33,581 nt of DNA from Xenococcaceae cyanobacterium MO_167.B27 (GTDB lineage: Bacteria; Cyanobacteriota; Cyanobacteriia; Cyanobacteriales; Xenococcaceae), in contig JASJCP010000034.1 of NCBI GenBank assembly GCA_030065935.1, positions 1 through 33,581 of the forward strand, given 5' to 3'. The notes beneath the pieces are model-generated. The model was given only the letters and a program-made list of their open reading frames with translations. It was not told the origin of the DNA and searched no databases. Made by a program: the position numbers and the translations under genes. Below, in pieces: positions 8,076 to 14,935 of the stretch; within the stretch, counting starts at the first letter, position 1, and each line of letters starts with the position of its first letter.

Positions 8076-9563
8076 TTATTTGCGTTTGGCTAAAGCTTCT
8101 CTAGCTTGTTCACGGTCATCAAAGTGAATTTTCTCTGTACCTAGTATTTGATAGTCTTCGTGTCCTTTTCCTGCAATTAATACCCCGTCTCCTGGTTGTG
8201 CTTGACTAATCGCAGTTGCGATCGCATTGGCTCGATCGCAGATTACTAAAGGATTTACTGTATCAGGTATTCCCTCTAATATATCATCGAGAATTCTTTG
8301 GGGGTCTTCGGTACGGGGGTTATCAGAGGTAACAACCGCTAGATCGGCTAGTTTAGCTACAATTTGACCCATCAGAGGGCGTTTAGTGCGATCGCGATCG
8401 CCTCCACAACCAAAGACACAGATCATTTTACCAGTTATAAAGGGACGGGCTGCAATAAGTAAGTTTTCCAGACTGTCAGGAGTGTGAGCATAATCTACAA
8501 TGACACTGATATCTTGATTCTCGTCTAGTTGTACTCGTTCCATTCTGCCAGGAACACCATCAAATTGAGTCAGACTACTGGCAATAAGAGATAATTCTAC
8601 TCCCATATGTAGGGCTGCTCCTACTGCTGCTAATAAATTAGCTAAATTAAATTGACCCACTAAAGGAGAGTTAAAGAGGATTTCTCCTTGAGGAGTATGT
8701 AAAATACCACTAACCCCAGTTGCTTGATAATTTAGGTCTGTAGTGTATAAATCTGTTTCAGGGTTGTTAACACTGTAACTCCAGACTTGCTCCTGTGGGA
8801 GTTGAGCTATTAAACGCTGTCCGTAAGCATCATCTAGATTGATAATTGCTTTTCCTGAGAGATATTGGGGACTAAATAGTAAGGCTTTGGCTTGGAAATA
8901 TTCTTCCATATCCTTATGGTAGTCTAGATGATCTTGAGTCAGATTGGTAAAAACTGCTACTTCAAAAGGACAGCCTTGGACTCTACCCTGTGCTAGTGCA
9001 TGGGAACTAACTTCCATCACCCCATATTCACTACCAGCACTTACAGCAGCAGCTAATTGGCTTTGTAAATCTACTGCAAAGGGAGTGGTATAGAGGGCGG
9101 TTTGTTGATAACCTTGCCAACGAGTATAAAGAGTACCTAATAACGCTGTTGGTAACTGAGACTGTAAGAGGAAGTATTCAATAAGATGTGTGGTTGTGGT
9201 TTTACCGTTTGTTCCTGTTACCCCGACTAATTTTAACTTCTGTGCAGGAGCATTGTAAAAGGCTGCTGCAACTGCTGCACAACTAGTGGTCATATTATCG
9301 GTAATAATTACACAGTCTGTTGCTGTTGGGGGTTGTTTGGCTGCTGCTTCGGTGGAAACAATGGCTGCGACTGCTCCTTTGGCGATCGCACTTTGCCAAT
9401 ATTCTCCTCCATCAACTCTAGTCCCTGGCATTCCGATAAACAAGTTTCCTGGTTGACAGGTGTGGGAATTGGTTGATAATCCTGTAACTTCTCGATCTAG
9501 GGCAGAATGTTCAGAGGTGAGCTTAATTGATTCTATGTTGGCTAATAATTCACGTAATTTCAT
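8076..9563 (-). CDS. murE: UDP-MurNAc-L-Ala-D-Glu:meso-diaminopimelate ligase
   Basis: Cytoplasmic peptidoglycan enzyme that adds meso-diaminopimelate to the UDP-MurNAc dipeptide, using ATP. From the ATG at 9563 the protein is 495 aa, normal for MurE. The ATP loop GVTGTNGKTT is at 114-123, a lysine in the position usually carbamylated is near 226, and DNPR (414-417) is the motif that selects meso-DAP over lysine. GKGHEDYQ closes the C-terminal domain. The frame stays open upstream to 9704, but those 47 codons are translated mobile-element sequence and are not MurE. The 5' flank is interrupted only 30 bp upstream by the TnpB element, so the native promoter may be displaced. Confidence 0.96.
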   Translation of the reverse strand: MKLRELLANIESIKLTSEHSALDREVTGLSTNSHTCQPGNLFIGMPGTRVDGGEYWQSAIAKGAVAAIVSTEAAAKQPPTATDCVIITDNMTTSCAAVAAAFYNAPAQKLKLVGVTGTNGKTTTTHLIEYFLLQSQLPTALLGTLYTRWQGYQQTALYTTPFAVDLQSQLAAAVSAGSEYGVMEVSSHALAQGRVQGCPFEVAVFTNLTQDHLDYHKDMEEYFQAKALLFSPQYLSGKAIINLDDAYGQRLIAQLPQEQVWSYSVNNPETDLYTTDLNYQATGVSGILHTPQGEILFNSPLVGQFNLANLLAAVGAALHMGVELSLIASSLTQFDGVPGRMERVQLDENQDISVIVDYAHTPDSLENLLIAARPFITGKMICVFGCGGDRDRTKRPLMGQIVAKLADLAVVTSDNPRTEDPQRILDDILEGIPDTVNPLVICDRANAIATAISQAQPGDGVLIAGKGHEDYQILGTEKIHFDDREQAREALAKRK

Positions 9564-9662
9564 ATTGCACCAGGAAGAGAAATAACAACTATGTGACATC
9601 TCCCGTCCCCTAAAAGGGAGACGGGCTTCTAACCTCACGATTAGAACTTGCTCCCCTCTCTT

Positions 9663-9715: not shown

Positions 9716-10972
9716 TTATCTAGAACGAAGTTCCCCGACAGTACGACTTGAGAGCCACGACGAGCGCGTTCCCTTGCGTCTTACGCCGACGCGGGGTCGC
9801 TCGTCAATTTCTTGCTTTTCGGGAGTCCCCCGATACGTTTCTATTGCTCGATTACACAGTTCTTGGGCTGAGGCAATGTCCCGATCTATTTCGTACAAAC
9901 ATTCAGGACATGAATGTAAGCGAACTGACAAATCTTTTCTCACTTCTGCACGGCAGTTAGGACAAGTTTGGCTACTTCCTTTGTGATCAACTTCCCCTAT
10001 AAACTTGCCCCGTTTCCATCCCACATACTTGAGTATTTGTCGGAACTGACCAAATCCTGCGTCGATAGTGTGTTTCCCCAAAAACCCTTTTGCCATAATG
10101 CTCCAATCTATATCTTCAACAAAGATTGAATCCGCCATGTCACAGAGTTTGTGGGCTAACTTAAACTGGTAATCTTTGCGTTTGAAGGCAATATGGTTAT
10201 GTTGTTTTTCTACTTTCAGTCTGGCTTTAGAATAGTTAGCAGAACGTTTCTTTTTCTTCGATAACCGATGTTGCAGCACTTTCAGCCTACGGTGTTCAGT
10301 TTTGAAGAATTTACGTCCTGGTTCTCTCCAGCCGTCACTAGTAGCGCAATATGACAGTAATCCGACATCTACCCCTATAAAATGCCCAGAAGGAACTGGA
10401 TTTGGTACGGAGATGTCAGACTGAATACTAATGATTGCAAACCATCCTTTTGCCTTTTTGATAACACGAACTTGCTTGATGACAAAACCTTCTGGAATCG
10501 GTCGATGCAAGTTGATTTGCACCCTACCCAATTTCGGCAATTTTATCTGCCAATCAGTCAAAGGGTTAGATCGGAACTGCGGGAAAAGAATTGACTTCAT
10601 TTGCCCATATTTCTTGAATCTAGGGAATCCGTAACCCCGACTGCGAAAAAAATCCCAAGCATCATGCAACCTTCTAATATTGGTTTGTAAAACTTGTGAA
10701 GGTACTGATGCTAAGAAAGGAAATTTTTTCTTGGCTGCTGGTAAGTTATTTTGCTGTTGTTGATATCCAGGGAAAGGATAATCTGCTGACATTATATATT
10801 CAAACTCCAAACTACACCTATCAATAGGACACTTACGAGAAGATATCCAATCCTTCAATTCCCTCAGTGCATAGTTGTAACTAATACGACAAGTTTCCAA
10901 CCACTCGTTGAGTAGTTCGACTTGAGAATTCTCTGGATACAGGCGATATGTATAGTTGAAAATTATAGTCAT
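9716..10972 (-). CDS. tnpB: RNA-guided endonuclease TnpB
   Basis: OrfB/TnpB protein, ancestor-type relative of Cas12, which cuts DNA next to a target-adjacent motif using a guide RNA from its own 3' end. The 418-aa protein looks intact. It has an N-terminal OrfB helix-turn-helix region (TYRLYPENSQ), RuvC-I Asp202 in GVDVGL, RuvC-II Glu286 in VEDIDW, a zinc ribbon CPNC (337-340) with CPEC (355-358), and the RuvC-III DRD at 363-365. The last 30 or so residues are unlike the family and are partly encoded by palindromic unit B. The gene points toward murE. A 9-bp inverted repeat sits just before its start. Confidence 0.93.
   Translation of the reverse strand: MTIIFNYTYRLYPENSQVELLNEWLETCRISYNYALRELKDWISSRKCPIDRCSLEFEYIMSADYPFPGYQQQQNNLPAAKKKFPFLASVPSQVLQTNIRRLHDAWDFFRSRGYGFPRFKKYGQMKSILFPQFRSNPLTDWQIKLPKLGRVQINLHRPIPEGFVIKQVRVIKKAKGWFAIISIQSDISVPNPVPSGHFIGVDVGLLSYCATSDGWREPGRKFFKTEHRRLKVLQHRLSKKKKRSANYSKARLKVEKQHNHIAFKRKDYQFKLAHKLCDMADSIFVEDIDWSIMAKGFLGKHTIDAGFGQFRQILKYVGWKRGKFIGEVDHKGSSQTCPNCRAEVRKDLSVRLHSCPECLYEIDRDIASAQELCNRAIETYRGTPEKQEIDERPRVGVRRKGTRSSWLSSRTVGELRSR
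9759..9805. repeat. Palindromic unit B inside the tnpB coding tail
   Basis: GACGAGCG (9759-9766) pairs with CGCTCGTC (9798-9805), with an inner GCGTC/GACGC stem. It shares the GCGCGTTCCC and GCGGGGTCGC blocks with unit A. It lies within the tnpB reading frame and codes for about residues 390-405 without a stop, so it looks like an in-frame insertion of a dispersed palindrome. Confidence 0.7.
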
Positions 10973-11082: not shown

Positions 11083-11130
11083 TTATTTAACTGCATCTTT
11101 TTCTAGTAAAAGAGGGACGGCGACCTTTGG
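11083..11130 (-). pseudogene. dtd: Distal fragment of split dtd
   Basis: Read on the minus strand from 11128, the frame gives KGRRPSFT. KGRRPSF is the diagnostic motif that follows SQFTLYGDC in D-aminoacyl-tRNA deacylases, exactly where the proximal fragment at 13418 breaks off. In a second frame the same stretch ends LLLEKDAVK and TAA at 11083-11085, which resembles the usual DTD C-terminus. The simplest reading is that the middle of the second half (about 50 codons) was deleted, fusing KGRRP to the last residues with a frame change. The KGRRPSF part is firm; the C-terminal match is tentative. Confidence 0.6.
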
Positions 11131-11214
11131 ACCCAAGGTATTAACTCCTAATGTATTATATATTTCACAAGCTTATAGGCTTTATATACAAAGAAACTAA
11201 GTAATAAATAAGGA

Positions 11215-12831
11215 ATGACCAAGGAAAATAAGGAGCTAGAAAACTTACCATCTGAACAGTTGCCTAATGATGGTGGTTGGCACTGGGACAGATTAGTAAC
11301 AGAAGCTAATGAGCGGTTACACAAGATTGGGCGACACGGAAAACGAGCCAAAATAAAGATTAGTAGCCCGATTAAACCTGGAAAAGCAATATCAGCACAG
11401 TTTAAAGTCCCTGGAGATAAACAAAGAAGCTATGGGCTAAACTTATCCTTAAACAAAAACAACCTAGTTAAAGCTGAGGAGCTATGTAGCTTAATTACTG
11501 GTCAATTGGTAGCTAATACATTCACCCTGGATTGGTTTTATTCATTGATAGGAAAAATTGAGAAAGTAAGTAAAAAACCAGAGAAGCCTCTAACTTGTAA
11601 AGAGATGTTGGAAGAATACAAGACTCATTATTTCAAACAAGGAAAAGACAACAAAGATACTGATAATAATTGGATTAAATACTATAGGCACATAGAAAAA
11701 ACCTTTTTAAAGTATAAAAATGATGTCCTTACCCTAAAAATTCTAAAGGAAACCATAGAGTGTACTAATAATAATAGTAATGCCAGAAATGTAACTTTAA
11801 ATAGTTTAGGCAACCTATTTAAATACTTTGATAATAATGACTTTAAGCCAATTATTAAGCGATACAAATTAGAAAATAACCCTAAACCTAAACAGAAATA
11901 TATTCCTACAGATACACAAATATATCACGTGTATCAATCTGGTTTTGAAATCAATCCTAGTTGCTCTAAAAGGTGGCGTTATAGATATGCTCAATGGCAA
12001 TTTTTATATAGCTTGCTTGCCATCTATGGATTGAGAGCGCATGAAGCCTGGAACATTAAAAACTGGGATGAACCTGTAACTTTAAAAGCTGGCGAATGGA
12101 TAGCTATAGCTGACTTAGAAGACACTAAAAAGGAAAATGAAGAAGAGCAATATAGCTATCATCAAATTAAACAAAATCGAATTATTCCAGCTATTCTTGA
12201 TCCAAATAACAAAGATTATTTACTTTGTATAGGACATGAGACTAAAACGGGTTATAGGGTAGCTATTCCTATGTCTCCTAGCGGAATAGCGAGGAATTGT
12301 GATTGGGTACAAAAGTTTAATCTAGTTCAGTCCATGAATTTGCCTGATGTGAAAGAGGCGTTAAAAAGAAGACCAAGAAACGGAACTCGCAACTGTACTC
12401 ATGCGACAACTAAATGGTTTAATCCTAGTTCTAACTGGCAAAAAAATAAACGCAACAATACCCCAAATAAATGCACTCTTAGATATGGATTCACCGCTCA
12501 TGCTTTAAGACACGCTTACAACATTCGAGCGCATAGATTGGGAATTACTCCGAAAATGATTGCTGATAGTTTGGGACATGGTCAAGATATAAACTTAACC
12601 ACATACAAGAGACATGAACAAATTGAATCTAAAATTGAGGGAATCGAGCAAGAAGTATCTAAACAAGTTAAAAAAATGTCTAAAGTACAAGAACTTCAAA
12701 GCCAACTAGAACAAGCTTTAAAACAGAACGCTTACCTAGAAGATGAAAATAAACACCTAAAAGCAGAAAACGAAAAACTAAGGACTGAGTTAGCGATGCT
12801 CAAAGCAATACACCCAACTCAACCCCAATAA
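11215..12831 (+). CDS. Tyrosine-type site-specific recombinase/integrase
   Basis: Catalyses DNA strand exchange through a 3'-phosphotyrosine. In this 538-aa protein the catalytic residues can be placed: Arg274 (YGLRAHEAW), His429 and Arg432 (HALRHAYN), His455 (LGHG) and nucleophile Tyr464 (TTYKRH). Residues 1-115 form a lysine-rich N-terminal region, about 125-220 the core-binding domain, and about 485-535 a strong heptad coiled coil (LQSQLEQALKQ, then NKHLKAENEKLRTEL), an unusual tail that may drive assembly. The gene lies inside dtd with a convergent Rep remnant overlapping its 3' end by 13 bp, so it is the likely agent of the insertion. Codon use and AT content are like the rest of the window. 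Confidence 0.92.
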   Translation: MTKENKELENLPSEQLPNDGGWHWDRLVTEANERLHKIGRHGKRAKIKISSPIKPGKAISAQFKVPGDKQRSYGLNLSLNKNNLVKAEELCSLITGQLVANTFTLDWFYSLIGKIEKVSKKPEKPLTCKEMLEEYKTHYFKQGKDNKDTDNNWIKYYRHIEKTFLKYKNDVLTLKILKETIECTNNNSNARNVTLNSLGNLFKYFDNNDFKPIIKRYKLENNPKPKQKYIPTDTQIYHVYQSGFEINPSCSKRWRYRYAQWQFLYSLLAIYGLRAHEAWNIKNWDEPVTLKAGEWIAIADLEDTKKENEEEQYSYHQIKQNRIIPAILDPNNKDYLLCIGHETKTGYRVAIPMSPSGIARNCDWVQKFNLVQSMNLPDVKEALKRRPRNGTRNCTHATTKWFNPSSNWQKNKRNNTPNKCTLRYGFTAHALRHAYNIRAHRLGITPKMIADSLGHGQDINLTTYKRHEQIESKIEGIEQEVSKQVKKMSKVQELQSQLEQALKQNAYLEDENKHLKAENEKLRTELAMLKAIHPTQPQ

Positions 12832-13391
12832 GTAATAAAAATTCTAATATTCATTGTAGTAGGGAATTGTTCATTGAATTTAACTTGACTACCTTTGGTT
12901 GATAGATTGTTAAACCAGTCTCTTTCTATGTCGGCTATTATGTCTATTATCTTTTGAGCATATTTCCCCTTAAACTCGGTTTCATGCCTTAAAAATTGCC
13001 CTTTATGGTCATATATTCTAGTGTAATGGTCTGACTTTCTTGACCCCATAGCATGAGTTATTTTCCCATCTGCTTCTGATTCACAATGGTCATAAGTTCG
13101 GAAGTAAAACTTGTTCCCATCATTAATAGCTTGTACCATCTCATCTACTGGAATATGTTGGTAAGTTACATCATCAGTAGCTATATCGATTCGGCAACAA
13201 TGACAGCCATAGGCATTACATAACCCTCTAATTATTCGCCATATATCTATTGCAGTTTTTCCTTGAAAGTACTTACCTGTAAAGTCAACCATTACATCTA
13301 CAGTTCCAGCTTTTTCATTGATGTTAAATCCCCCTACTACCCCATTAGCAGTGGGAATACATAAAACCCAAAATTCTTTGTATGTAAAGGT
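12819..13391 (-). pseudogene. Rolling-circle replication initiation factor remnant (Rep_trans-like)
   Basis: The frame reads as a plasmid/ICE-type Rep without a proper start. From 13391 it gives [17 protein letters not shown], then a Met at 13292 (MVDFTGKYFQGKTAIDIWR). Next come the family's CRIDIATDD motif, a GSRKSDHYTRIYDHKG block and FLRHETEFKGKYAQKI, all in the order seen in replication initiation factor proteins (Pfam PF02486 type). Full members are around 300 aa or more. Here the N-terminus is cut at the dtd junction and the C-terminus ends early (TYWG), overlapping the integrase end. It may be expressed from 13292 as a 157-aa piece, but is probably non-functional. Confidence 0.6.
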
Positions 13392-13678
13392 TTAAGCGAC
13401 GATAAGTAAAAATTGTGGCAATCTCCATAAAGGGTAAATTGACTCACAACGAGTAATTCTCCCTGAATATCAGTAACGGATTTTTCCCATTTACTACTGT
13501 CGCTGTCCCCTGGAAATATTCTTAAATCGAGACATTTGCGAGCCATCCACTCAATTTCTGTATCAGTATCATGGGGGGAAATTCCCACTAACAGATTTAA
13601 ACCTCTTCCGATTTTACCAATGATTTCTTCGTTAACAATGACGGAAGAGGATTTTACTCGCTGAATTACAACGCGCAT
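13337..13678 (-). pseudogene. dtd: D-aminoacyl-tRNA deacylase, proximal part of an interrupted gene
   Basis: DTD removes D-amino acids (and glycine) from mischarged tRNA. The start [15 protein letters not shown], the GLNLLVGI segment and the catalytic-side motif SQFTLYGDC (ending at 13418) are well conserved. The normal continuation (RKGRRPSF and about 60 more residues) is replaced by unrelated sequence to a stop at 13337, giving 113 aa instead of about 150. The second conserved Dtd motif, GP(V/T), is in the missing half, so this piece cannot form a normal active site. KGRRPSF is found 2.3 kb away at 11128, beyond the integrase element. Confidence 0.88.
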
Positions 13679-13742
13679 CAGTTTTAATTCTTGGGTTTCA
13701 AACAGAACAATTGATCTTAATTATCCATTGTCCATTTACCAA

Positions 13743-14834
13743 TTACTTGCCAAATCCTTTACCACGGTTGCTAGAAGGGAAACAGAGACATTTCTCAATT
13801 TGTGTTCTTAAATTATCATGATCGAGGTTTTGACCAATCAAGACTAATTGGTTTTTCTTCTCTCCTTTCCATTCTTCATCTTCGATGCTAAATCTTTTCC
13901 CGCTCAGATGGAAGATATGACGCTTGGGACTTTCATCAAACCAAAGAATACCTTTAGCGCGAAATACGTTTTCTGGTAGATGGTTATCAAGGAAGTTTTG
14001 GAATTTTCTAATATTCAATGGGCGATCGCTTTTAATGGATAGAGAGGTAAAACCATCATTCTCTAAGTGATCTGAGTGGTGGTGATGGTGATGATCGTGG
14101 TGATGCTCATGGTGATGATCGTGGTGATGCTCATGGTCATGATCATGGTCGTGATGATGTTCTGATTCAGCACTATCAAAATATTTATCAGACTCAAACA
14201 ATCCCACACTTAAAATTAGAGGTAAAGATACTTGAGATTTTTGAGTGCGTAAAATTCTCGCATCTTTCTTAAAGTCTCTAATTCTAATTTCTAAAGATTC
14301 AACATCAGCCTCATCTACTAAGTCAGTTTTGTTGAGAACAATCACATCTCCATATTGTATCTGACTGTGGGCTGCTTGGGAGTTGAATAGATCAAGACTG
14401 AAGTTAGCACAATCCACCATCGTTACGATAGAATCGAGGCGGGTCATGTCTCGTAACTCTGTCCCCAAGAAAGTCAAAGCAACAGGAAGGGGGTCAGCAA
14501 GTCCAGTAGTTTCTACTACTAAGTAATCAATTTTATCTTCTCGTTCCAGAATTTTATAGACTGCATTAACTAAATCTTCGTTAATGGTACAGCAGATACA
14601 ACCGTTATTGAGTTCTACCATACTGTCATCGGTAGAGACGATCAACTCGTTATCAATCCCAATTTCACCGAATTCATTAACTAATACTGCTGTTTTTATT
14701 CCTTCTTGGTTAGTTAAGATGTGATTGAGGAGAGTTGTTTTACCGCTACCAAGAAAACCCGTGATGATAGTAACAGGTAAACCTTTTTTTTGTGTATCCA
14801 TGCTTGATGTAGCTTGAGTCTCAACTATTGTCAT
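13743..14834 (-). CDS. COG0523 (CobW/ZigA-type) GTP-dependent metallochaperone
   Basis: G3E-family GTPase that uses GTP hydrolysis to hand metal, often zinc or cobalt, to client proteins. Features of the 363-aa protein: Walker A GFLGSGKT (26-33), the family's metal-binding CxCC in GCICC (78-82), Walker B-like VETTGLADP, base-recognition NKTD (168-171), and a C-terminal CobW domain from about 265. Between them lies a very His-rich linker (226-256) with 22 His in 31 residues, interspersed with Asp and Glu, which should bind several metal ions. The gene is downstream of the RHH and SPFH genes on the same strand, about 100 bp apart. No Zur box could be confirmed by eye. Metal identity is not determined. 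Confidence 0.92.
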   Translation of the reverse strand: MTIVETQATSSMDTQKKGLPVTIITGFLGSGKTTLLNHILTNQEGIKTAVLVNEFGEIGIDNELIVSTDDSMVELNNGCICCTINEDLVNAVYKILEREDKIDYLVVETTGLADPLPVALTFLGTELRDMTRLDSIVTMVDCANFSLDLFNSQAAHSQIQYGDVIVLNKTDLVDEADVESLEIRIRDFKKDARILRTQKSQVSLPLILSVGLFESDKYFDSAESEHHHDHDHDHEHHHDHHHEHHHDHHHHHHSDHLENDGFTSLSIKSDRPLNIRKFQNFLDNHLPENVFRAKGILWFDESPKRHIFHLSGKRFSIEDEEWKGEKKNQLVLIGQNLDHDNLRTQIEKCLCFPSSNRGKGFGK

Positions 14835-14935
14835 AGCGATCGCCGTTAAGAAAAAATGTTTTTCAACGATATTTTAGTGTTTATGAGTCAATTATTACCC
14901 ATTTGACAATTTATTTTTCATAAATCGTCTTGACT

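Follow-up and report, generated by a model that had tools for sequence, protein, structure and literature searches.

The closest described systems are the tyrosine-recombinase elements that interrupt genes in heterocyst-forming cyanobacteria, namely nifD/xisA, hupL/xisC, nifK and others (PMC4874684). In the available sections of that survey, the origin of interruption elements is called unclear, with phage or virus remnants as the hypothesis, and elements excised population-wide in a non-terminal cell are described as remaining extrachromosomal unless reintegrated; dtd is absent from its Table 1. A second kind comprises the integrative mobilizable elements (IMEs) that combine a tyrosine integrase with Rep_trans/MobT, such as IME_Sga2069_rpmE, which insert at gene 3' ends according to the accessible part of PMC5704250. 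Like the heterocyst excision elements, the element described here carries a homologous recombinase with a C-terminal coiled coil, encoded at the element edge, and it splits a protein-coding gene into collinear halves. Unlike them, it belongs to a separate recombinase clade, some members of which have Rep_trans aboard, and the copy is beyond repair. The two-module make-up is shared with the IMEs, but elements of the present type have an XisA-type recombinase and split genes internally. Our literature search, mostly of open-access texts, found no description of Rep-bearing XisA-type elements.

The window, which is the whole stretch of 33,581 nucleotides analysed, is contig C188 of the 7.02 Mb draft genome of Xenococcaceae cyanobacterium MO_167.B27. 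To our knowledge, Xenococcaceae form no heterocysts. The features of the locus, with the evidence for each, are as follows:

11083 to 11114, minus strand: natural 3' end of dtd (LLLEKDAVK and stop codon), out of frame with KGRRPSF; 25-bp blastn match (11090-11114) to the very end of the G002 dtd
11108 to 11128, minus strand: dtd continuation KGRRPSF; intact dtd of G002/G003
11129 to 11214, no strand: left end of the element; comparison with other clade members
11215 to 12831, plus strand: tyrosine recombinase of 538 aa with a C-terminal coiled coil; alignment of relatives and profile comparison
12819 to 13391, minus strand: Rep_trans (replication initiator) remnant, tail to tail with the recombinase; Pfam, PHROG and relatives
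13392 to 13417, no strand: right-hand element end with its junction to the 5' part of dtd; point where dtd homology to G002 and others ceases
13418 to 13678, minus strand: dtd 5' part, codons 1-87, frame intact; PF02580

The dtd gene is split by an inserted element. The product of its 5' part, MRVVIQ...SQFTLYGDC, is identical at 72 of 87 residues to the DTD of G002, the same-genus reference with an uninterrupted dtd (locus L041); G003 also belongs to this genus. The PF02580 match (13415-13675(-), positions 1-85 of 144, E 2.6e-30) breaks off there, as a reading made from the sequence alone had claimed in placing the end of dtd homology near 13418. The same reading took KGRRPSF at 11128, 2.3 kb away in unchanged orientation, for the continuation of the gene, and its match to the intact dtd of G002 and G003 identifies it as genuine dtd rather than part of an unrelated ORF; no relative was found with the integrase at this place but no dtd at 11083-11130. 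Alignment with the intact dtd of G002 mapped both junctions. By blastn, cobW and the dtd 5' part (window 13421-14843) are collinear with G002 on one side and the Mur ligase gene (window 8126-9591) on the other, and both neighbours, recognised by Pfam, flank dtd in G002 and G003 as well; we read the Mur ligase gene as murE. The cobW-family GTPase adjoining dtd has a long histidine/aspartate-rich insert (window 14078-14160, HHDHDHDHEHHHDHHH...). Between the dead dtd and murE lies an intact-looking TnpB gene of the IS200/IS605 kind (418 aa, window 9716-10972), absent from this interval in G002 and G003. A second dtd, which the sequence-only reading had proposed to look for, was not found: the Pfam profile search of the own genome gave a single PF02580 match, the dtd 5' part alone, and 0 matches to the back-up enzyme DTD2 (PF04414).

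Since dtd homology stops within ~3 bases on either side (GATTGC/AAAGGTCGCC), the insertion was precise. An assembly chimera might be suspected in a draft of 282 contigs, with the contigs of several relatives ending near such recombinases, but the two dtd parts and the two neighbouring genes share a single contig, arranged and oriented as in G002/G003, and the dtd parts abut within those ~3 bases; we consider a chimera scarcely conceivable. The recombinase gene sits at the element edge and reads inward, starting 86 bp from the left dtd junction. The DNA common to clade members starts ~67 bp upstream of the recombinase start, and the outer ~20 bp are not common. The recombinase and Rep frames, whose 3' ends overlap by 13 bp, together take up the insert. 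The insert content proposed earlier, a recombinase with a coiled coil and a convergent Rep_trans remnant, was borne out, except for the limit of the Rep frame, which is open to 13391, beyond the ATG at 13292. The element is short, but its size is not unusual, contrary to what the earlier words "very small" implied: a 1.3 kb element is included in the sections of PMC4874684 available to us.

The junctions with dtd are the weakest point of the reconstruction. The residual junction sequences TTGCCACAA and TTGGGTCCAA bear only a vague resemblance to each other, and exact direct repeats were not found at the two element ends. As 55 of 100 shuffled controls score at least as high, no repeat remaining at the dtd junctions exceeds chance, and a recombination core is therefore unproven in the window; either the dtd core was short and has since decayed, or the overlaps differed. 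A 15-bp string, TCGCTTAAACCTTTA, occurs at the right ends of both the window element (13380-13400) and the G015 element (L054) in opposite orientations, which may be chance.

In the window recombinase, R274, K344, H429, R432, H455 and Y464 are intact; these residues are invariant in 15 aligned relatives, and we take them to be the catalytic set of tyrosine recombinases. Pfam Phage_integrase detects such proteins weakly (window recombinase, 14.1 bits; XisA-like protein, 19.8 bits; cut-off, 27.1). Recombinase matches at E <= 0.001, many of them remote, were obtained in 20 of 59 relatives (own genome excluded), and 16 loci were found among named genomes (11 Xenococcaceae MAGs, 2 Myxosarcina, 1 Pleurocapsales LEGE 06147, and 2 Gomphosphaeria). 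Plasmid records and phage records gave 0 recombinase matches. In G282 and G273, the recombinases adjoin nitrogenase gene pieces (PF00148 positions 1-219, 86-398, and 87-398 of 399); the XisA-like reference protein, encoded beside nitrogenase genes, is so called for its resemblance to XisA. By blastp, the window recombinase and one of these nif-associated recombinases share 23% identity over 504 positions (90 bits). Profile-profile comparison of the window family with the nif-type family covered 402 columns, coiled coil included, at E 2.7e-52, and the XisA-like protein alone gave 404 columns at E 1.4e-32; in contrast, the control, another tyrosine recombinase from the same family of genomes, gave 40 columns only at E 0.31. 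These comparisons show that the window recombinase is homologous over its length, C-terminal coiled coil included, to XisA-type recombinases.

The recombinase tree comprised 55 rows, of which 18 were window-type and 17 nif-type, and each type fell on one side of a branch with support of 100/100. The window fork (20 rows, 100/99) also takes in two rows of G029, a genome of another family, and support for the deep forks is weak; for these reasons, we use "sister" clade as a working word. The topology indicates that the recombinase clade of Xenococcaceae-type genomes is separate from the nif-associated clade. The earlier likening of this element to the nifD, hupL and fdxN elements is thus upheld in the homologous recombinase, as well as in the precise splitting of genes by its relatives, and needs qualification in that the clade is a separate one.

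The distal part of dtd is decayed. The G002 gene has two copies of the octamer CTCTTTTA, one at PSF and the other at TLL, at a distance of 146 bp. The window sequence passes from PSF directly into the second copy of CTCTTTTA (shared repeat at 11107-11114), followed by LLLEKDAVK and the stop codon. KGRRPSF therefore abuts the natural end of dtd because 146 bp, as measured in G002, are missing between the two 8-bp repeats, which agrees with the earlier suspicion that the distal part is shortened. As 146 is not a multiple of three, any joined dtd reading of the window stops early, ending in KGRRPSFTRKRCS and a stop codon. The motif NXGP(V/F)T is one of two DTD active-site motifs in the available part of PMC3845328, and the lost stretch includes it (GPVT). 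Given the frame shift and the GPVT loss, excision could not restore dtd, as the sequence-only reading had expected; the gene is dead whether the element stays or leaves. One might nevertheless suppose that in one cell type or another the recombinase cuts the element out and so restores DTD, given the intact recombinase frame with its six invariant residues, the in-frame dtd 5' part, and the excision carried out in heterocysts by XisA-type relatives (PMC4874684, in its available sections). Such a working excision element is refuted for DTD function by every joined reading, each lacking NXGP(V/F)T, and its junction cores are mismatched; we give this explanation very little credence. With the dtd distal part, the Rep and the junction match all decayed, the window copy is the fossil that had been suggested.

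Loss of dtd is not confined to the window. Across 291 genomes from the order, counting the window's own, 185 gave a dtd match and 106 gave none, intactness being judged from one row per genome. Within the family, the match is missing in 6 of 26 other genomes, and G014, G015, G017, G022 and G023 lack it at completeness of at least 95%. We re-searched 11 other genomes with weak or double dtd matches; the inserts were read in three of them (G126, G042 and G226), G268 has dtd in two pieces (L161 and L162), and for six the match table was the sole basis of judgement. The inserts in G126 and G226 are IS200/IS605 TnpB elements (Pfam), and that in G042 is a group II intron (maturase, RVT, Rfam RF00029); all lie at other positions, that of G226 within ~10 codons of the window site. 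The idea of a conserved dtd codon run serving repeatedly as an attachment site found no support in these three opened inserts, two IS200/IS605 elements and one intron lying elsewhere. Other breakages of dtd include truncations, as in G018, or stops. With 106 of 291 genomes lacking a match, and with cases of IS200/IS605 elements, an intron, truncation and stops, dtd has been lost often in this order, insertion as in the window being one route among several. The G042 intron (L158 1627-4535) encodes a maturase/RT/HNH protein, and its splicing might still yield DTD.

Genes other than dtd are split by relatives of the window element. Of the 18 window-type rows, 4 have both gene halves visible, namely those of the window, G020, G012 and G015. 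In G020, a luciferase-like monooxygenase gene is split (PF00296 positions 2-126 and 122-313); a 9-bp repeat, TCATGATAA (9/9), occurs in copies 5,407 bp apart, and the halves joined in silico give one frame of 366 codons, restoring the gene. In G012, the gene for a DctP-type protein is split, with PF03480 nearly complete ahead of the element; the core is a 20/21-bp repeat with copies 3,976 bp apart, and the element swaps the last residues only (frame of 371 codons with the element and 374 without). In G015, a FAD/Rieske oxidoreductase (PF01266, PF00355), whose open frames have 506-520 codons in seven relatives, is split at an imperfect 15-bp repeat with copies 7,043 bp apart; its 5' part is itself shortened, apparently, as judged by eye, by an upstream transposase. 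The distance from the recombinase start to the core is 68-93 bp in these three, alongside 86 bp to the junction in the window. The repeats were located by anchoring on the gene halves; a de novo scan by score does not single out the G020 and G015 cores, and the G012 core lay outside the scanned stretch. In a fifth row, G012 locus L060, the contig reaches far enough to show one half only, the 3' one, of a comM-like gene. Gene splitting was not seen in the other 13 rows, the inspected ones being at gene or contig ends, intergenic or ambiguous. Not counted were L059, where the insertion lies at the end of a gene, and L046, where a split gene was not recognised; no Pfam family was found at the element edges in L062 and L057.

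The second module of the window element resembles plasmid-type replication initiators. Its frame scores 22.8 and 22.3 bits against Pfam Rep_trans, below the cut-off of 29.6, and matches the PHROG replication-initiation family at E 5.7e-7. Compared with relatives, the first ~110-120 residues are missing, together with about 30 near the C-terminal end; G020 possesses a complete Rep_trans protein above the cut-off, and the window a remnant. Rep homologues occur in 8 of the 59 relatives (own genome excluded), all in the same family, at 12 loci when two G015 pieces are taken as one, with longest frames of 336-407 codons. A tyrosine recombinase lies near Rep at 8 of these 12 loci, 11 of which were inspected (G007:C364 was left out); the remaining three inspected loci, all close to contig ends, have none nearby. 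The window-type profile matches the recombinase at six Rep loci (three in G020, and one each in G015, G004 and G017), and two Rep loci (L178 3189-4403 and L182 6764-7978, in G010 and G017) adjoin another tyrosine recombinase type. This other type exceeds the Pfam cut-off for Phage_integrase. Among the four split-gene elements, Rep is absent in one and broken in two: the G012 DctP element gave 0 Rep matches, and the G015 Rep lies in two frames.

In G020, a 3.0-kb Rep module is found at three loci (L046, L047 and L121; identity of 98.7-100%), being nearly identical in two window-type elements and 98.7-98.9% identical in the third locus. The recombinases beside it differ, the first two being 74-94% alike over 250-bp DNA stretches and the third of a remote type. 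Rep and recombinase modules are thus exchanged. Small, differing ribbon-helix-helix-like frames lie at the right ends of two of the Rep-module loci. The G020 Rep finds the plasmids pCYLM01 (EF221636.1, 2,175 bp) and pFIS3754-01 (NZ_AP017306.1, 2,849 bp); the frames on both score above the Pfam cut-off for Rep_trans, and phage records gave 0 Rep matches. These circular records share with the G020 element a homologous Rep_trans, but they differ in lacking a window-type recombinase and in an identity of 24% and 36% over the matched parts.

The combination of a tyrosine integrase with Rep_trans is also the known make-up of streptococcal elements, and the MobT relaxases of Tn916 and ICEBs1 replicate the excised form as well (PMC5704250, in the part available). 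By analogy, the element could be an integrative mobilizable one, with Rep_trans as a MobT-type relaxase for helper-aided conjugal transfer and maintenance secondary; however, the plasmid homologues of Rep are typed non-mobilizable, and we regard this role as unlikely. We hold an equally low opinion of two independent arrivals, a recombinase-only insertion in dtd joined by a Rep fragment from elsewhere. The window Rep runs opposite to the recombinase, whereas the G020 and G015 Rep run in the same direction as theirs, and it is only ~30% identical to these two; its inverted orientation and this low identity are why it could be a separate arrival. It is, moreover, truncated at either end, and elsewhere in the clade there are members with no Rep in the vicinity. 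Nevertheless, the 13-bp overlap of the two frames, which leaves the insert filled, and the recurrence of Rep near a tyrosine recombinase at most Rep loci of relatives speak against a separate origin. Our preference, over both the MobT-type relaxase and the separate arrival, is that Rep replicates the circle.

The element is most likely a decayed integrative element from a sister branch of the XisA-type elements, a branch that is partly Rep-bearing. The most probable history is that a circle able to integrate, and bearing a plasmid-type Rep, inserted into dtd by means of an XisA-related recombinase and then decayed in place. A small integrative element would have entered between codons 87 and 89, its tyrosine recombinase joining the circular form into a short core inside dtd, and the deletion would have followed the insertion. 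A cycle of excision as a circle, replication from Rep, and reinsertion into the same or another gene is likely, because this recombinase type can travel with a Rep_trans that has homologues in tiny plasmids. In the window, such a cycle would have halted with the shortened Rep, the mismatched junctions, and a distal dtd lacking 146 bp out of frame. Against this explanation stand the lack of a repeat above chance at the dtd junctions, the opposite direction and low identity of the window Rep, the DctP element with its 0 Rep matches, the majority of clade members, for which a Rep was not demonstrated, the 13 of 18 rows in which gene splitting was not seen, and the occurrence of the recombinase in no plasmid or phage record.

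An XisA-type clade that sits in ordinary genes and is partly accompanied by a plasmid-type Rep provides interruption elements with a concrete origin and a means of persisting. We tentatively raise the broader possibility, which we rate as doubtful, that cyanobacterial tyrosine-type interruption elements descend from integrating rolling-circle mini-plasmids, some of which are still such in Xenococcaceae-type genomes. If so, the recombinase together with Rep would enable an element to exit a gene, survive as a circle and later re-enter, and genes such as that of the G020 luciferase-like monooxygenase could switch reversibly in cells that are not terminally differentiated. The heterocyst elements would then be Rep-less, one-way descendants, and the dtd copy a dead end of the cycle. 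The nearly complete genome G020 is a candidate for measuring excision, circle copy number and gene restoration, and the window dtd represents a case of irreversible decay.
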